Of a stretch of DNA of 64,000 bases, positions 24,280 through 27,707 are shown one piece after another. Numbering within the stretch: the first letter of the stretch is position 1; each line of letters begins with the position of its first letter. The notes beneath the pieces are model-generated. The model ran no database searches and was not told the DNA's origin. It worked only from the letters and a program-made list of their open reading frames with translations. This DNA is from Paracholeplasma brassicae. Its GTDB lineage: Bacteria; Bacillota_I; Bacilli_A; Acholeplasmatales; UBA5453. The stretch is from positions 1,352,366 to 1,416,365 of the forward strand of contig NC_022549.1 of assembly GCF_000967915.1 (NCBI RefSeq). Reading direction: 5' to 3'. The translations under genes were made by a program, and so were the position numbers.

Positions 24280-24309
24280 AAAAAATAAAAGTCGCAAGGA
24301 CTTTTATTC
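24280..24309 (-). terminator. Terminator of the aminotransferase gene
   Basis: Stem AATAAAAGTC / GACTTTTATT (24284-24293, 24299-24308) with a long T run on the minus strand. The aminotransferase stop codon is inside the hairpin. Confidence 0.75.
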
Positions 24310-25554
24310 GTTATAAGAATCTATTTTCTCGATTGAGTTTTTTAACGCCTGCACTAATCTTGGGATTTCCTTTTCACAAATACTCGATATCGCTACTCGG
24401 ATGGCCTTATCTAAAGGAATGACAAACACATGTTGATTTGCTAAATCCTCATAAATCTCAACCGGATTTTCAACTGGAATTGTTACAAAGAACCCATCTT
24501 TATACGGATAAATTGACAACTCAGACATTAATGCAATTTTTACAAACTCTGTGCCACGTTTGTTTAACGTTTCTTTCACATAACTTAGTTCGTTTAAATA
24601 GTCTTCATAATCAAGTTCATGATTCATTAAATGGTTCATTATTGATATGCCGGTAGCTGGACTGCAACTCCAGGTTGCTCTGGCCTTAAACGTTGTAATT
24701 CGTGACATTTCATCAATTAGATGTTTACTTCTAGATAGTCCAATTAAAGCGCCTAATCGAAACCCATATAGACCAAACGTTTTTGATCCACTAAAAGCAA
24801 TGGCTGTGATCATATTCGACTTAATTGTCTCAAGAATAGCAAATTTTTCTCTAGACTCTTCCATTGTTTTACCAAAATAATCAATATAGGCAACATCATA
24901 AATTAGAATTACTGGTACTTTTAGAGATAAGTCATCAAGGGTTTGAATAATCGTTTTGAATTCTTTTTTTGATAACGAGTACCCCGTTGGGTTATGTGCT
25001 GGATCATTTAAGATAACGACTAATTTCTTTGTGATTTCAGCAATCATGGTTGCTTTTTGTTTAAAATCATCTAGATTGAACTCATTTTCTTTAAACATTT
25101 GGTAAGTTTGATAGGTTGCCCCAACCGACTTAATCATTTCTTTATAATTACTCCAATGAATGTGTGGCAATAAAACCATGTCACCATCGGTTACGTAATT
25201 CGATAATACCAAATAAAGCGCCCCTGATGCGCCAGGTGTTGCGCAAACCATTGACTCAAAGTTATCTTCGACAAGCTTTAATTGATTTTGAAACACAAAA
25301 CGTTTAATCGCATCTTTAAAGACAGGGCCGCCATCAATCGATGGATAAGCTCGATAGGTTTTATTGTCAATTCGACCAAAAACATTTGAGATCGACTTGA
25401 ATTCATAGAGTTGTCCAACATCATCCATCATTGCTCCGATGGTCGCATTAATGGTTTCATTGGCCTCTAATTTTGCTTTTTTAGCTTTTGCGCCTAAGGC
25501 CAAAATATCCTCGCCTAAATCATATTTTCTAGTTTTAATGTTTGCATAGTCCAA
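24304..25554 (-). CDS. Class I/II pyridoxal-phosphate aminotransferase (aromatic/aspartate type)
   Basis: Cytoplasmic fold-type I aminotransferase of 416 residues. Seen: NDPAHNPTGY (NPTG at 188-191), YDVAYIDY (Asp220/Tyr223 region) and the PLP-lysine block FSGSKTFGLYGFRLG (Lys258). It most resembles the aromatic amino acid or aspartate group, but the amino-acid specificity cannot be fixed from motifs. Start is TTG 25554, chosen for the strong GGGAGGG site 6 nt upstream. It may form the transamination step for amino acids released by the peptidases in the window. Confidence 0.87.
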   Translation of the reverse strand: MDYANIKTRKYDLGEDILALGAKAKKAKLEANETINATIGAMMDDVGQLYEFKSISNVFGRIDNKTYRAYPSIDGGPVFKDAIKRFVFQNQLKLVEDNFESMVCATPGASGALYLVLSNYVTDGDMVLLPHIHWSNYKEMIKSVGATYQTYQMFKENEFNLDDFKQKATMIAEITKKLVVILNDPAHNPTGYSLSKKEFKTIIQTLDDLSLKVPVILIYDVAYIDYFGKTMEESREKFAILETIKSNMITAIAFSGSKTFGLYGFRLGALIGLSRSKHLIDEMSRITTFKARATWSCSPATGISIMNHLMNHELDYEDYLNELSYVKETLNKRGTEFVKIALMSELSIYPYKDGFFVTIPVENPVEIYEDLANQHVFVIPLDKAIRVAISSICEKEIPRLVQALKNSIEKIDSYNE

Positions 25555-25589: not shown

Positions 25590-26237
25590 TTATTGTTTAC
25601 ATTCGCAATCTTCTAGTTTATTACCGCAATCGCATGTTTCTTCTTCATCGTCGTGATGGTGGTGATGTCTTCCACAGCCACAACCTTGTTCTTCATTTTC
25701 GTGATGGTGGTGATGCCCACCACAGCCACAACCTTGTTCTTCTTCATCGTGATGGTGATGATGACCCCCACAGCCACAACCTTGTTCTTCATCGTGATGG
25801 TGGTGATGACCGCCACAACCACAACCTTGTTCTTCTTCATCAAATTGATCAAAGCCTAACATAAAACTATCTTCATTAAAATCAAAACGATTATCGTATT
25901 CATCGAAAATACCGAATGTTTCATGCCCGATTTCCTTGATTTCATAGGTGATTCCGTTGATGTTAAATACCTTTTGTTCCCCGATAACTTCTAAATTTTC
26001 CAAATGAACGATTTCGAGGTTATCGTCTGTTTCAGTTCCTCCGAATTTTAGAGGTTTTTTATAAAGTATGCCCCAACCAAAATTATAGGATTCCTCATCA
26101 CCATAAAATTCTCTAAGCGTTTCACCGTCTAAATAATCCTCTTTATATATCCAGGCACCTGCGAAATCCTCTACGACTTCGTGATCACCATAGCGTGATT
26201 CCCACAAGATTAATGCTTTTTCTTTACTTATCTTCAT
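25590..26237 (-). CDS. Cys/His-rich repeat protein with four GCGCGGHHHHH-type units
   Basis: 215 residues in two parts. Residues 1-135 are an acidic globular domain with no motif I can name (aromatic, rich in GxEE/YxxE). Residues 138-215 hold four near-identical units GCGCG(G/R)HHHHH at 138-148, 153-163, 169-179 and 185-195, spaced by acidic DEEEQ/ENEEQ linkers, then a CDCGNKLEDCEC tail. That gives 20 repeat histidines and at least 12 cysteines, a layout that should bind several soft or borderline metals (Zn, Ni, Co, Cu). No signal peptide or membrane helix, so it is cytoplasmic. Monocistronic with AAAGGAG before ATG 26237. Metal storage or buffering is an inference. Confidence 0.8.
   Translation of the reverse strand: MKISKEKALILWESRYGDHEVVEDFAGAWIYKEDYLDGETLREFYGDEESYNFGWGILYKKPLKFGGTETDDNLEIVHLENLEVIGEQKVFNINGITYEIKEIGHETFGIFDEYDNRFDFNEDSFMLGFDQFDEEEQGCGCGGHHHHHDEEQGCGCGGHHHHHDEEEQGCGCGGHHHHHENEEQGCGCGRHHHHHDDEEETCDCGNKLEDCECKQ
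25650..25829 (-). repeat. In-gene tandem repeat, about 48-54 bp units
   Basis: Four DNA units encode the GCGCG-polyHis blocks; unit lengths vary in multiples of three, so the frame is kept. The near identity of the units implies recent expansion or ongoing gene conversion, and copy number may vary between strains. Confidence 0.85.
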
Positions 26238-26287: not shown

Positions 26288-26318
26288 AAAAGAAAAAGAG
26301 TATAGTAATCTATACTCA
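26288..26318 (-). terminator. Terminator of the cps genes
   Basis: Stem GAGTATAG / CTATACTC (26298-26305, 26310-26317) followed on the minus strand by TCTTTTTCTTTT, directly at the end of cpsB. Confidence 0.7.
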
Positions 26319-27010
26319 AATGCTTTCATTTAAAATGATACGTTTTGGGTTATCCTCAAAGATCTTTTTCGCATATTCTTTTGAATACTTCTTTACCACG
26401 AATTGAAACGCCTCTTTAAGATTAGGTTTACGGTCACCTAAATTATGACTATCGGTTGCTACCACATCAACTAATTGTTTTTTTAGTAAATAGCGCGCCA
26501 TTTTTTTCTTTTATAACCATCAAGACCTAAGATAGCTGAACTGTTAACTTGAATCAAGCCACCTGTTTTTTTGATCTCTGTGTAATCTTTTTTCTTTAAG
26601 TAACCATAGCGTTCAACGTGTGCTACAATTGGTCTTATCTTGAGTGTTCGAAAATTATACACAATTTCTTCAATTGGTGTTTCAAGAATCGTTGAAAATT
26701 CAACTAATACATAGGAGGTGTTCTCAATCGTCATTAAGTGTTTGTTTGAAAGGGATTCTTTCGTATAATACACTTCACTTCCTAACAAGAGTCGCACATC
26801 TAAATTTTGTTCTTTTACTTTTTCTTTTAATTGTTCAAAGTTATGTCTTATTTTTGAAACTTTTTCTGGTTTAAAACTTCTCATATGAGGGGTTAAAACA
26901 ACCGTTGTGACACCATCATTGATCTGTTTTTTTATCATCTCAATCGACATCTCAATATTAGCTGACCCATCATCTATTTCATGCAGTATGTGGCAATGAA
27001 GATCAATCAT
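26316..27010 (-). pseudogene. cpsB: PHP-type tyrosine-protein phosphatase CpsB, frameshifted at an A7 tract
   Basis: Metal-dependent phosphatase that removes phosphate from the CpsD kinase in capsule/exopolysaccharide systems. The first part starts MIDLHCHILHEIDDGSANIE (metal His motif) and includes VVLTPHMRS, LLGSEVYY and IVAHVERYGYL. The last part, in the -1 frame, gives VDVVATDSHNLGDRKP and ends in NPKRIILNESI, the normal C-terminus. The switch falls exactly on seven As (T7 at 26501-26507 on the plus strand), reading AGA AAA AAA TGG in frame. Without a shift the product stops about 6 codons later and loses the ATDSHN metal ligands. Could be a true null, a phase-variable tract, programmed slippage or a sequencing error. 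Start 27010 overlaps the cpsD stop by 8 nt. Confidence 0.82.
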
Positions 27011-27707
27011 ACTTGTATGAGTATTTGTACCCATAAACACCATTAGTCATTTTTACTTGTGTAAATCCAATACCTATGATTTTAGCATTGTTTCTTTCAA
27101 GGGCATGGAAAGCGTCACGAACAAGTGCTTTTTTCGCTTTACCAAAACCAACAACAAAAATGACGCCATCCGATATTTTATTGATGATTAGTGTATCAGC
27201 AACGGCCAATACCGGTGGAGTATCTAAGAGAACGTAATCAAAATCTTCTTTTAATTTATTGATGAGTTCTTCTAATTTCTTTGATTCTAACAAATTGATA
27301 ACTGCTGTGGTTTTCTCCCCAGCAACCATATAATATATGCCATCTTCGGATACTCTTAATAGTTGTTCATAAGTGATCTTACCAGCCAAATAGTCAGTAA
27401 TTCCATCTTTATTGATTTCAGAAAACACACGATTTAGTTTAGGTCTTCTTAAATCTAGGTCTAATACGACTACTTTTTTGCCTTTATCTGCCAATAAATA
27501 GGCAATATTCGCAAATAAAGTGGTTTTACCTTCTGCTTGAAGGGTTGAAGTAAATTGAATCACCTTATATTGGTTATCTACGTTTGCGTATTCTAAGTTG
27601 AGTACTAATTTTTGAAATGATTCTGTAACGAAAGACATCTTATCTTCTCTAGCCACTAAGTAGCCATAGGATTCTTTTCTTTTTCTCTTTAAGATATTTG
27701 GAACCAT
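27003..27707 (-). CDS. cpsD: CpsD/CapB-type tyrosine-protein kinase (BY-kinase)
   Basis: Cytoplasmic bacterial tyrosine kinase that pairs with a CpsC-type membrane activator to control polysaccharide chain length and export. Walker A is FTSTLQAEGKTT, Walker A' VVVLDLDLRRPKLN, Walker B YVLLDTPPVLAVADT, and the C-terminus is a Tyr cluster (YGYKYSYKYD), the usual autophosphorylation tail. An ATG at 27716 is possible, but the AAGGAGG site abuts it and is properly spaced for ATG 27707. Lies between cpsC and cpsB with overlapping ends, the classical order. Confidence 0.92.
   Translation of the reverse strand: MVPNILKRKRKESYGYLVAREDKMSFVTESFQKLVLNLEYANVDNQYKVIQFTSTLQAEGKTTLFANIAYLLADKGKKVVVLDLDLRRPKLNRVFSEINKDGITDYLAGKITYEQLLRVSEDGIYYMVAGEKTTAVINLLESKKLEELINKLKEDFDYVLLDTPPVLAVADTLIINKISDGVIFVVGFGKAKKALVRDAFHALERNNAKIIGIGFTQVKMTNGVYGYKYSYKYD

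Follow-up and report, generated by a model that had tools for sequence, protein, structure and literature searches.

A Cys/His-rich, putatively metal-binding tail on a dead HNH-type domain in Paracholeplasma brassicae

Described counterparts of the protein considered here are found among proteins that carry Cys/His-rich extensions or are themselves Cys/His-rich, namely HspA of H. pylori (a GroES protein with such an extension) and Hpn, both of which are associated with nickel sequestration (PMC4671568), and SlyD, whose tail binds up to 7 Ni(II), the tails of SlyD proteins being able to bind several Ni or Zn ions (PMC7055735). To these may be added the COG0523 proteins, which often have His-rich stretches that have been read as signs of metallochaperone activity (PMC2770081). 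In HspA, Hpn and SlyD the binding or sequestration of nickel is an experimental result (PMC4671568, PMC7055735); their likeness to the present protein lies in the Cys/His-rich extension or composition, and their bodies differ from it. In the case of SlyD, the window protein shares the presence of a tail and gives no match to the FKBP peptidyl-prolyl isomerase domain. How wall-less bacteria buffer their metals has received little attention, and it is in one of these organisms, Paracholeplasma brassicae, that the gene described below occurs, within a stretch of 64,000 nucleotides that is referred to throughout as the window. The features of the locus, all on the minus strand, are as follows.

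25590-26237, minus: complete coding sequence including the stop codon, 215 aa, ATG start, with a degenerate HNH-type domain and a Cys/His-rich C-terminal tail
25881-26237, minus: HNH-family domain, residues 1-119 (profile built without the query, BLASTP, AF2 pLDDT 84)
25980-26078, minus: predicted beta-beta-alpha HNH core GWGILYKKPLKFGGTETDDNLEIVHLENLEVIG, residues 54-86 (alignment of 35 homologues with predicted strands and helix)
25653-25826, minus: four tandem GCGCG[GR]HHHHH units with acidic spacers (motif positions and TRF)
25826-25794, 25781-25749, 25733-25701 and 25685-25653, minus: GCGCG[GR]HHHHH cores of units 1-4
25593-25637, minus: C-terminal segment TCDCGNKLEDCECKQ with the end signature CxCG..[ED]xCECK
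26256-26250, minus: ribosome-binding site AAGGAGA
26271-26263, minus: extended -10 promoter-like element TGTTATAAT (sequence match only)
26317-26298, minus: terminator-like hairpin GAGTATAGATTACTATACTC with T-run, between cpsB and the 25590-26237 gene
24304-25554, minus: class I/II aminotransferase in the downstream flank, separate from the tailed protein and adjoining cpsB in five sister genomes

The original prediction described four GCGCG(G/R)HHHHH units with acidic spacers followed by a CDCG...CEC tail, and both the unit positions and TRF bear this out. The units begin at residues 138, 153, 169 and 185, such that the array spans residues 138-195 with a spacing of 45/48/48 nt, and TRF returns a single array (25641-25841, period 48, 4.2 copies, 87% matches). 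Residues 137-215, the 79 residues of the tail, contain 12 Cys, 20 His and 19 Asp/Glu and end in CDCGNKLEDCECKQ, which contains CDCG...EDCECKQ, while residues 1-136 hold no Cys at all and have a pI of 4.2. The tail is predicted to be disordered, with AF2 pLDDT below 50 for residues 138-202, and the multiple CxC and poly-His clusters within this segment are those of the Cys/His-rich metal-binding tail class. The array is not a product of chance, since the pattern TGYGGNTGYGG...CAYx4 occurs in only 3 of the 160 genomes of the order and the reversed control gave 0 matches.

The units had further been described as near-identical and recently expanded. Tandem duplication stands as the origin of the array, yet the DNA identity among the four 33-nt unit cores is 88-91%, and both the near-identity and the recency were thus somewhat overstated. 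Seven of the eight nucleotide differences from the unit consensus are synonymous and one is nonsynonymous, and hence the repeat peptide is probably under selection: if the differences were neutral, 22% would be expected to be synonymous and, with no constraint, 78% nonsynonymous (P = 1.7e-4, from a binomial in which the differences are assumed to be independent, a simplification). In other words, the tail reads as a product of tandem duplication that was later maintained at the peptide level. The composition of the tail, this conservation of its peptide and the existence of like arrays in COG0523/G3E metallochaperones make a metal-binding tail, as originally proposed, the best reading of the sequence.

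Arrays of this kind occur elsewhere in the class, where CGC followed by four His codons gives matches in 21 of 395 genomes. The carriers are mostly COG0523/G3E GTPases, which hold the array as an insert (PF02492 at 134.6 bits in the one tested). Those of the CobW/ZNG1 type (for example L061, L099 and L011), from the same order and class, resemble the window protein in their tandem CGCx-HHHH(H)-acidic units, of which there are up to nine copies, but differ in that the array is inserted in a GTPase with CxCC; in the window protein the array is C-terminal and the GTPase is absent, there being neither a PF02492 match nor a CxCC. Other carriers are a Nitro_FeMo-Co (NifX-like) protein, an HMA P-type ATPase and DUF1292 proteins. 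The last of these (L071 and L075) share a small acidic body, an acidic linker, a C-terminal CGC-HHHH cluster and further CxC groups, although their body is PF06949 and they have only one or two units. A histidyl-tRNA synthetase ending in a C-terminal EEHHHHCDCGCEDEHHHHEEE tail (L077) was also encountered. No match to the tail pattern was found in viral contigs. The analogous arrays in relatives differ in copy number, and the capacity for metal may be tuned by the number of copies, as had been suggested. The tail thus has the appearance of a portable kind of metal-binding module. The fusion of such a tail to an HNH domain was found in no other protein among the HNH-family proteins recovered, which agrees with the original expectation for this fusion; in other words, a known kind of tail is here joined to a new carrier.

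The N-terminal domain had been thought impossible to place, a view that no longer holds. When a profile was built from four relatives with the query left out, the window protein was recovered over residues 1-117 at 107 bits (E 5e-32), which places the domain as a degenerate HNH type. Indeed, it is homologous over its full length to HNH-type proteins of about 120 aa from Acholeplasmatales and phage contigs, which a search with the query only recovers at 1.5e-23 to 2.7e-19 with 38-44% identity; BLASTP against a Peloplasma protein gives 41% identity over 125 aa. One close relative lies above the Pfam HNH cut-off (25.0 bits vs 21.4), PHROG HNH families match two relatives, and the family profile run against the PDB reaches Cas8f-HNH (6.7e-4), an intron maturase (0.005) and, more weakly, Cas9 and IscB. 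The AF2 model (pLDDT 84) has predicted strands at 55-59 and 74-78 and a helix at 79-85, a strand-strand-helix order at the position of the HNH core, and Foldseek puts mostly HNH domains on top with weak E-values (best E 0.034). None of the models in Pfam, NCBIfam or PHROG picks up this copy by itself; its kinship with HNH is established by way of its relatives. The query has no Pfam match at E<=10, placing it below the curated HNH cut-off (PF01844 and kin), direct searches of Pfam, NCBIfam, PHROG and, by phmmer, the PDB with the whole protein gave nothing useful, and the sole PADLOC match, to Cas5b (E 0.007), is attributable to chance. A DUF1292 body for the N-terminal half was ruled out by the Pfam search.

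When 35 domains of the family are aligned, L58-Y59 (26066-26061) of the query take the place of the catalytic (D/H)-H, N73 and H78 are retained, and the Asn of the relatives at position 82 is Leu. Because L58-Y59 stand where the catalytic (D/H)-H belongs, the domain is, as judged from this alignment, a dead HNH domain, homologous to HNH nucleases and not to be named a nuclease, and it probably no longer cuts DNA. The small HNH endonuclease-type proteins of Peloplasma (L021) and of a phage contig (L059) are homologous to it over about 119 residues and differ in keeping (D/H)-H and in having no tail. The phage contig of L059 carries phage structural genes, L021 overlaps an AbiD/Abi_2 gene and a third relative (L022) is near an S24-type repressor gene; since its relatives sit near such genes, a mobile-element or defence origin of the domain is likely. 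A tblastn search of phage and plasmid records gave no relative, and of two scans of genome contigs the first gave no HNH relatives and the second, with an alignment, five, none of which is tailed.

The branch of the query in the HNH family tree is long (1.13). Other degenerate branches exist (L044/L045/L047/L049/L054, L042 and the first domain of L009). The degenerate domains L044/45/47/49/54 and L042 were considered as its source and rejected, as the tree, which has weak support near the query, needs three changes to account for the loss; the catalytic pair of the query was probably lost separately from these branches. L044, L045, L047, L049 and L054 form a separate clade in another family group, in which the DH motif is uniformly lost (GWVVSY/GWVISF); they are small proteins with acidic C-termini and are conserved pseudo-nucleases. 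A two-domain HNH protein (L006/L009, in G016), encoded upstream of an NYN-domain gene, combines a degenerate LEYILP copy with an intact TDHIMP copy.

With respect to its position, the aminotransferase gene comes directly after cpsB in five further genomes of Paracholeplasma, and only here does the tailed gene lie between them; by this comparison of gene order it is a lineage-specific insertion. The extended -10 element TGTTATAAT lies just downstream of the terminator-like hairpin of the capsule operon. P. vituli is the only other member of the genus with an HNH-family protein, which is untailed and at another locus.

The tail itself has a counterpart within the genus. When used as a protein query against the 160 genomes of the order it recovers G005, which also belongs to this genus and in which the tail sits on a HesB/IscA-like domain (PF01521 is matched by each of the five distinct versions scanned, best E 5e-4, with the displayed match below the cut-off). 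A tailed HesB/IscA-like protein is present in all six of the other genomes of the genus (L106-L111 in G001-G006), and a search of the complete genome of the window for such a protein gave no match. Like the window protein these proteins have a C-terminal CGCG/His-rich tail; unlike it, their carrier is unrelated to HNH and their units mix H, D and E where the window protein has HHHHH. The signature CxCG..[ED]xCECK stands at the C-terminal end of the window protein and of three out of six HesB-like tailed proteins, and at the DNA level GAAGATTGCGA(A/G)TG(T/C)AAACA is common to the window gene and G005. Matches of the tail, which is of low complexity, to the HesB-like tails score no higher than those to G3E inserts. 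Common descent of the two tails therefore rests on the short end signature, the remainder of the tail being too simple. Close to the HesB-like tailed genes are SRPBCC/pseudouridine-synthase genes and one of the CorC type. The tail appears to have switched carrier within one genus. Since the species of the window stands farthest from the rest of the genus by its aminotransferase (46-47% vs 57-100%), the change may have gone in either direction.

As regards function, the gene product is probably a cytosolic metal buffer or store, in which the dead HNH domain is the carrier and the tail chelates the metal, most likely Zn(II) and possibly Ni(II). According to this proposal an HNH-endonuclease domain was exapted from a mobile element or defence system with loss of its catalytic pair and would now be a stable, soluble carrier, or retain only protein or DNA binding. 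The tail would very probably bind metal: its four CxC-HHHHH clusters and one CDC/CEC cluster, in a disordered chain, could chelate soft or borderline divalent ions, about one or more per unit, with the acidic spacers maintaining solubility. Zn would be favoured by the company that such tails keep, with Ni, Co and Cu as further candidates. A regulator of the Fur family (Zur-like) is encoded next to ZnuABC in this genome; its ZnuA contains a His-rich loop, and there is a second transporter of the ZnuA type. Two observations count against a metal store: the promoter of the tailed gene and the two ZnuA-type genes share no Zur-type operator beyond chance, and none of the neighbouring genes (capsule phosphatase, aminotransferase, G6PDH) is concerned with metals. 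The tailed HNH protein may, moreover, stand in for the HesB/IscA-like tailed protein that is missing here. A wider proposal, which we put forward tentatively and would not yet call probable, is that the tail is the selected unit, on a HesB/IscA-like carrier in six species and on an exapted, dead mobile-element HNH in one, the carrier being largely interchangeable and the storage capacity residing in the tail. If true, selection would keep portable, low-complexity metal-binding modules rather than their host proteins, and dead mobile-element nucleases would be recruitable as scaffolds. Annotation from the folded domain alone (HNH, HesB) would overlook the likely function of the tailed proteins.

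The tail could equally serve metal delivery as storage. Accordingly, the protein might be a metallochaperone whose tail gathers Zn or Ni and whose N-terminal domain attaches to a client enzyme, in the manner of SlyD/HypB or COG0523 proteins. Such a role would suit the prevalence of COG0523/G3E GTPases among the carriers of comparable arrays, the Fe-S assembly-like (HesB/IscA-like) carrier in sister species, and a genome in which PF02492 matches are only marginal (21 bits) and an obvious COG0523 protein is absent. It is nevertheless rather unlikely, as the protein has no GTPase, no client gene is adjacent, the carrier domain has no kinship to any chaperone, and the difference in carrier among sister species argues against a fixed client.

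Less likely again is an HNH domain that still acts on nucleic acid, whether by DNA binding, as a divergent nuclease or in anti-phage defence, with the tail providing metal regulation or solubility. Relatives do occur in phage contigs and beside AbiD/Abi_2 and S24-repressor genes, N73 and H78 are kept and the fold is predicted to be intact; the catalytic pair has gone, however, the last Asn of the family is Leu, the domain is very acidic (unfavourable for DNA binding at such a pI) and its branch is long. That same long branch, together with confinement to a single species, the inserted position, repeats of 45-48 nt and the adjoining frameshifted cpsB, might suggest that the gene has no function and is the decaying remnant of a mobile-element HNH gene, with a low-complexity repeat gained by replication slippage. 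We regard this as very improbable, given the intact ORF with its ribosome-binding site and promoter-like element, the synonymous excess in the repeat units, the 41% identity to a relative and the predicted fold, which is intact. Storage of metal by the tail remains the preferred explanation.

The neighbouring cpsB gene (CpsB/CapC phosphatase) is itself split into two parts, at 26483-27043 and at about 26310-26490, both on the minus strand. Its 186-aa frame matches only 1-177 of the 234 positions of PF19567; a different frame just downstream is open over the conserved C-terminal part (VATDSHNLGDRKPNL...), with the break near an A-run. A real frameshift, phase variation and a sequencing error are indistinguishable as causes of this break; in the sister genomes the cpsB frame is 245-250 aa long.
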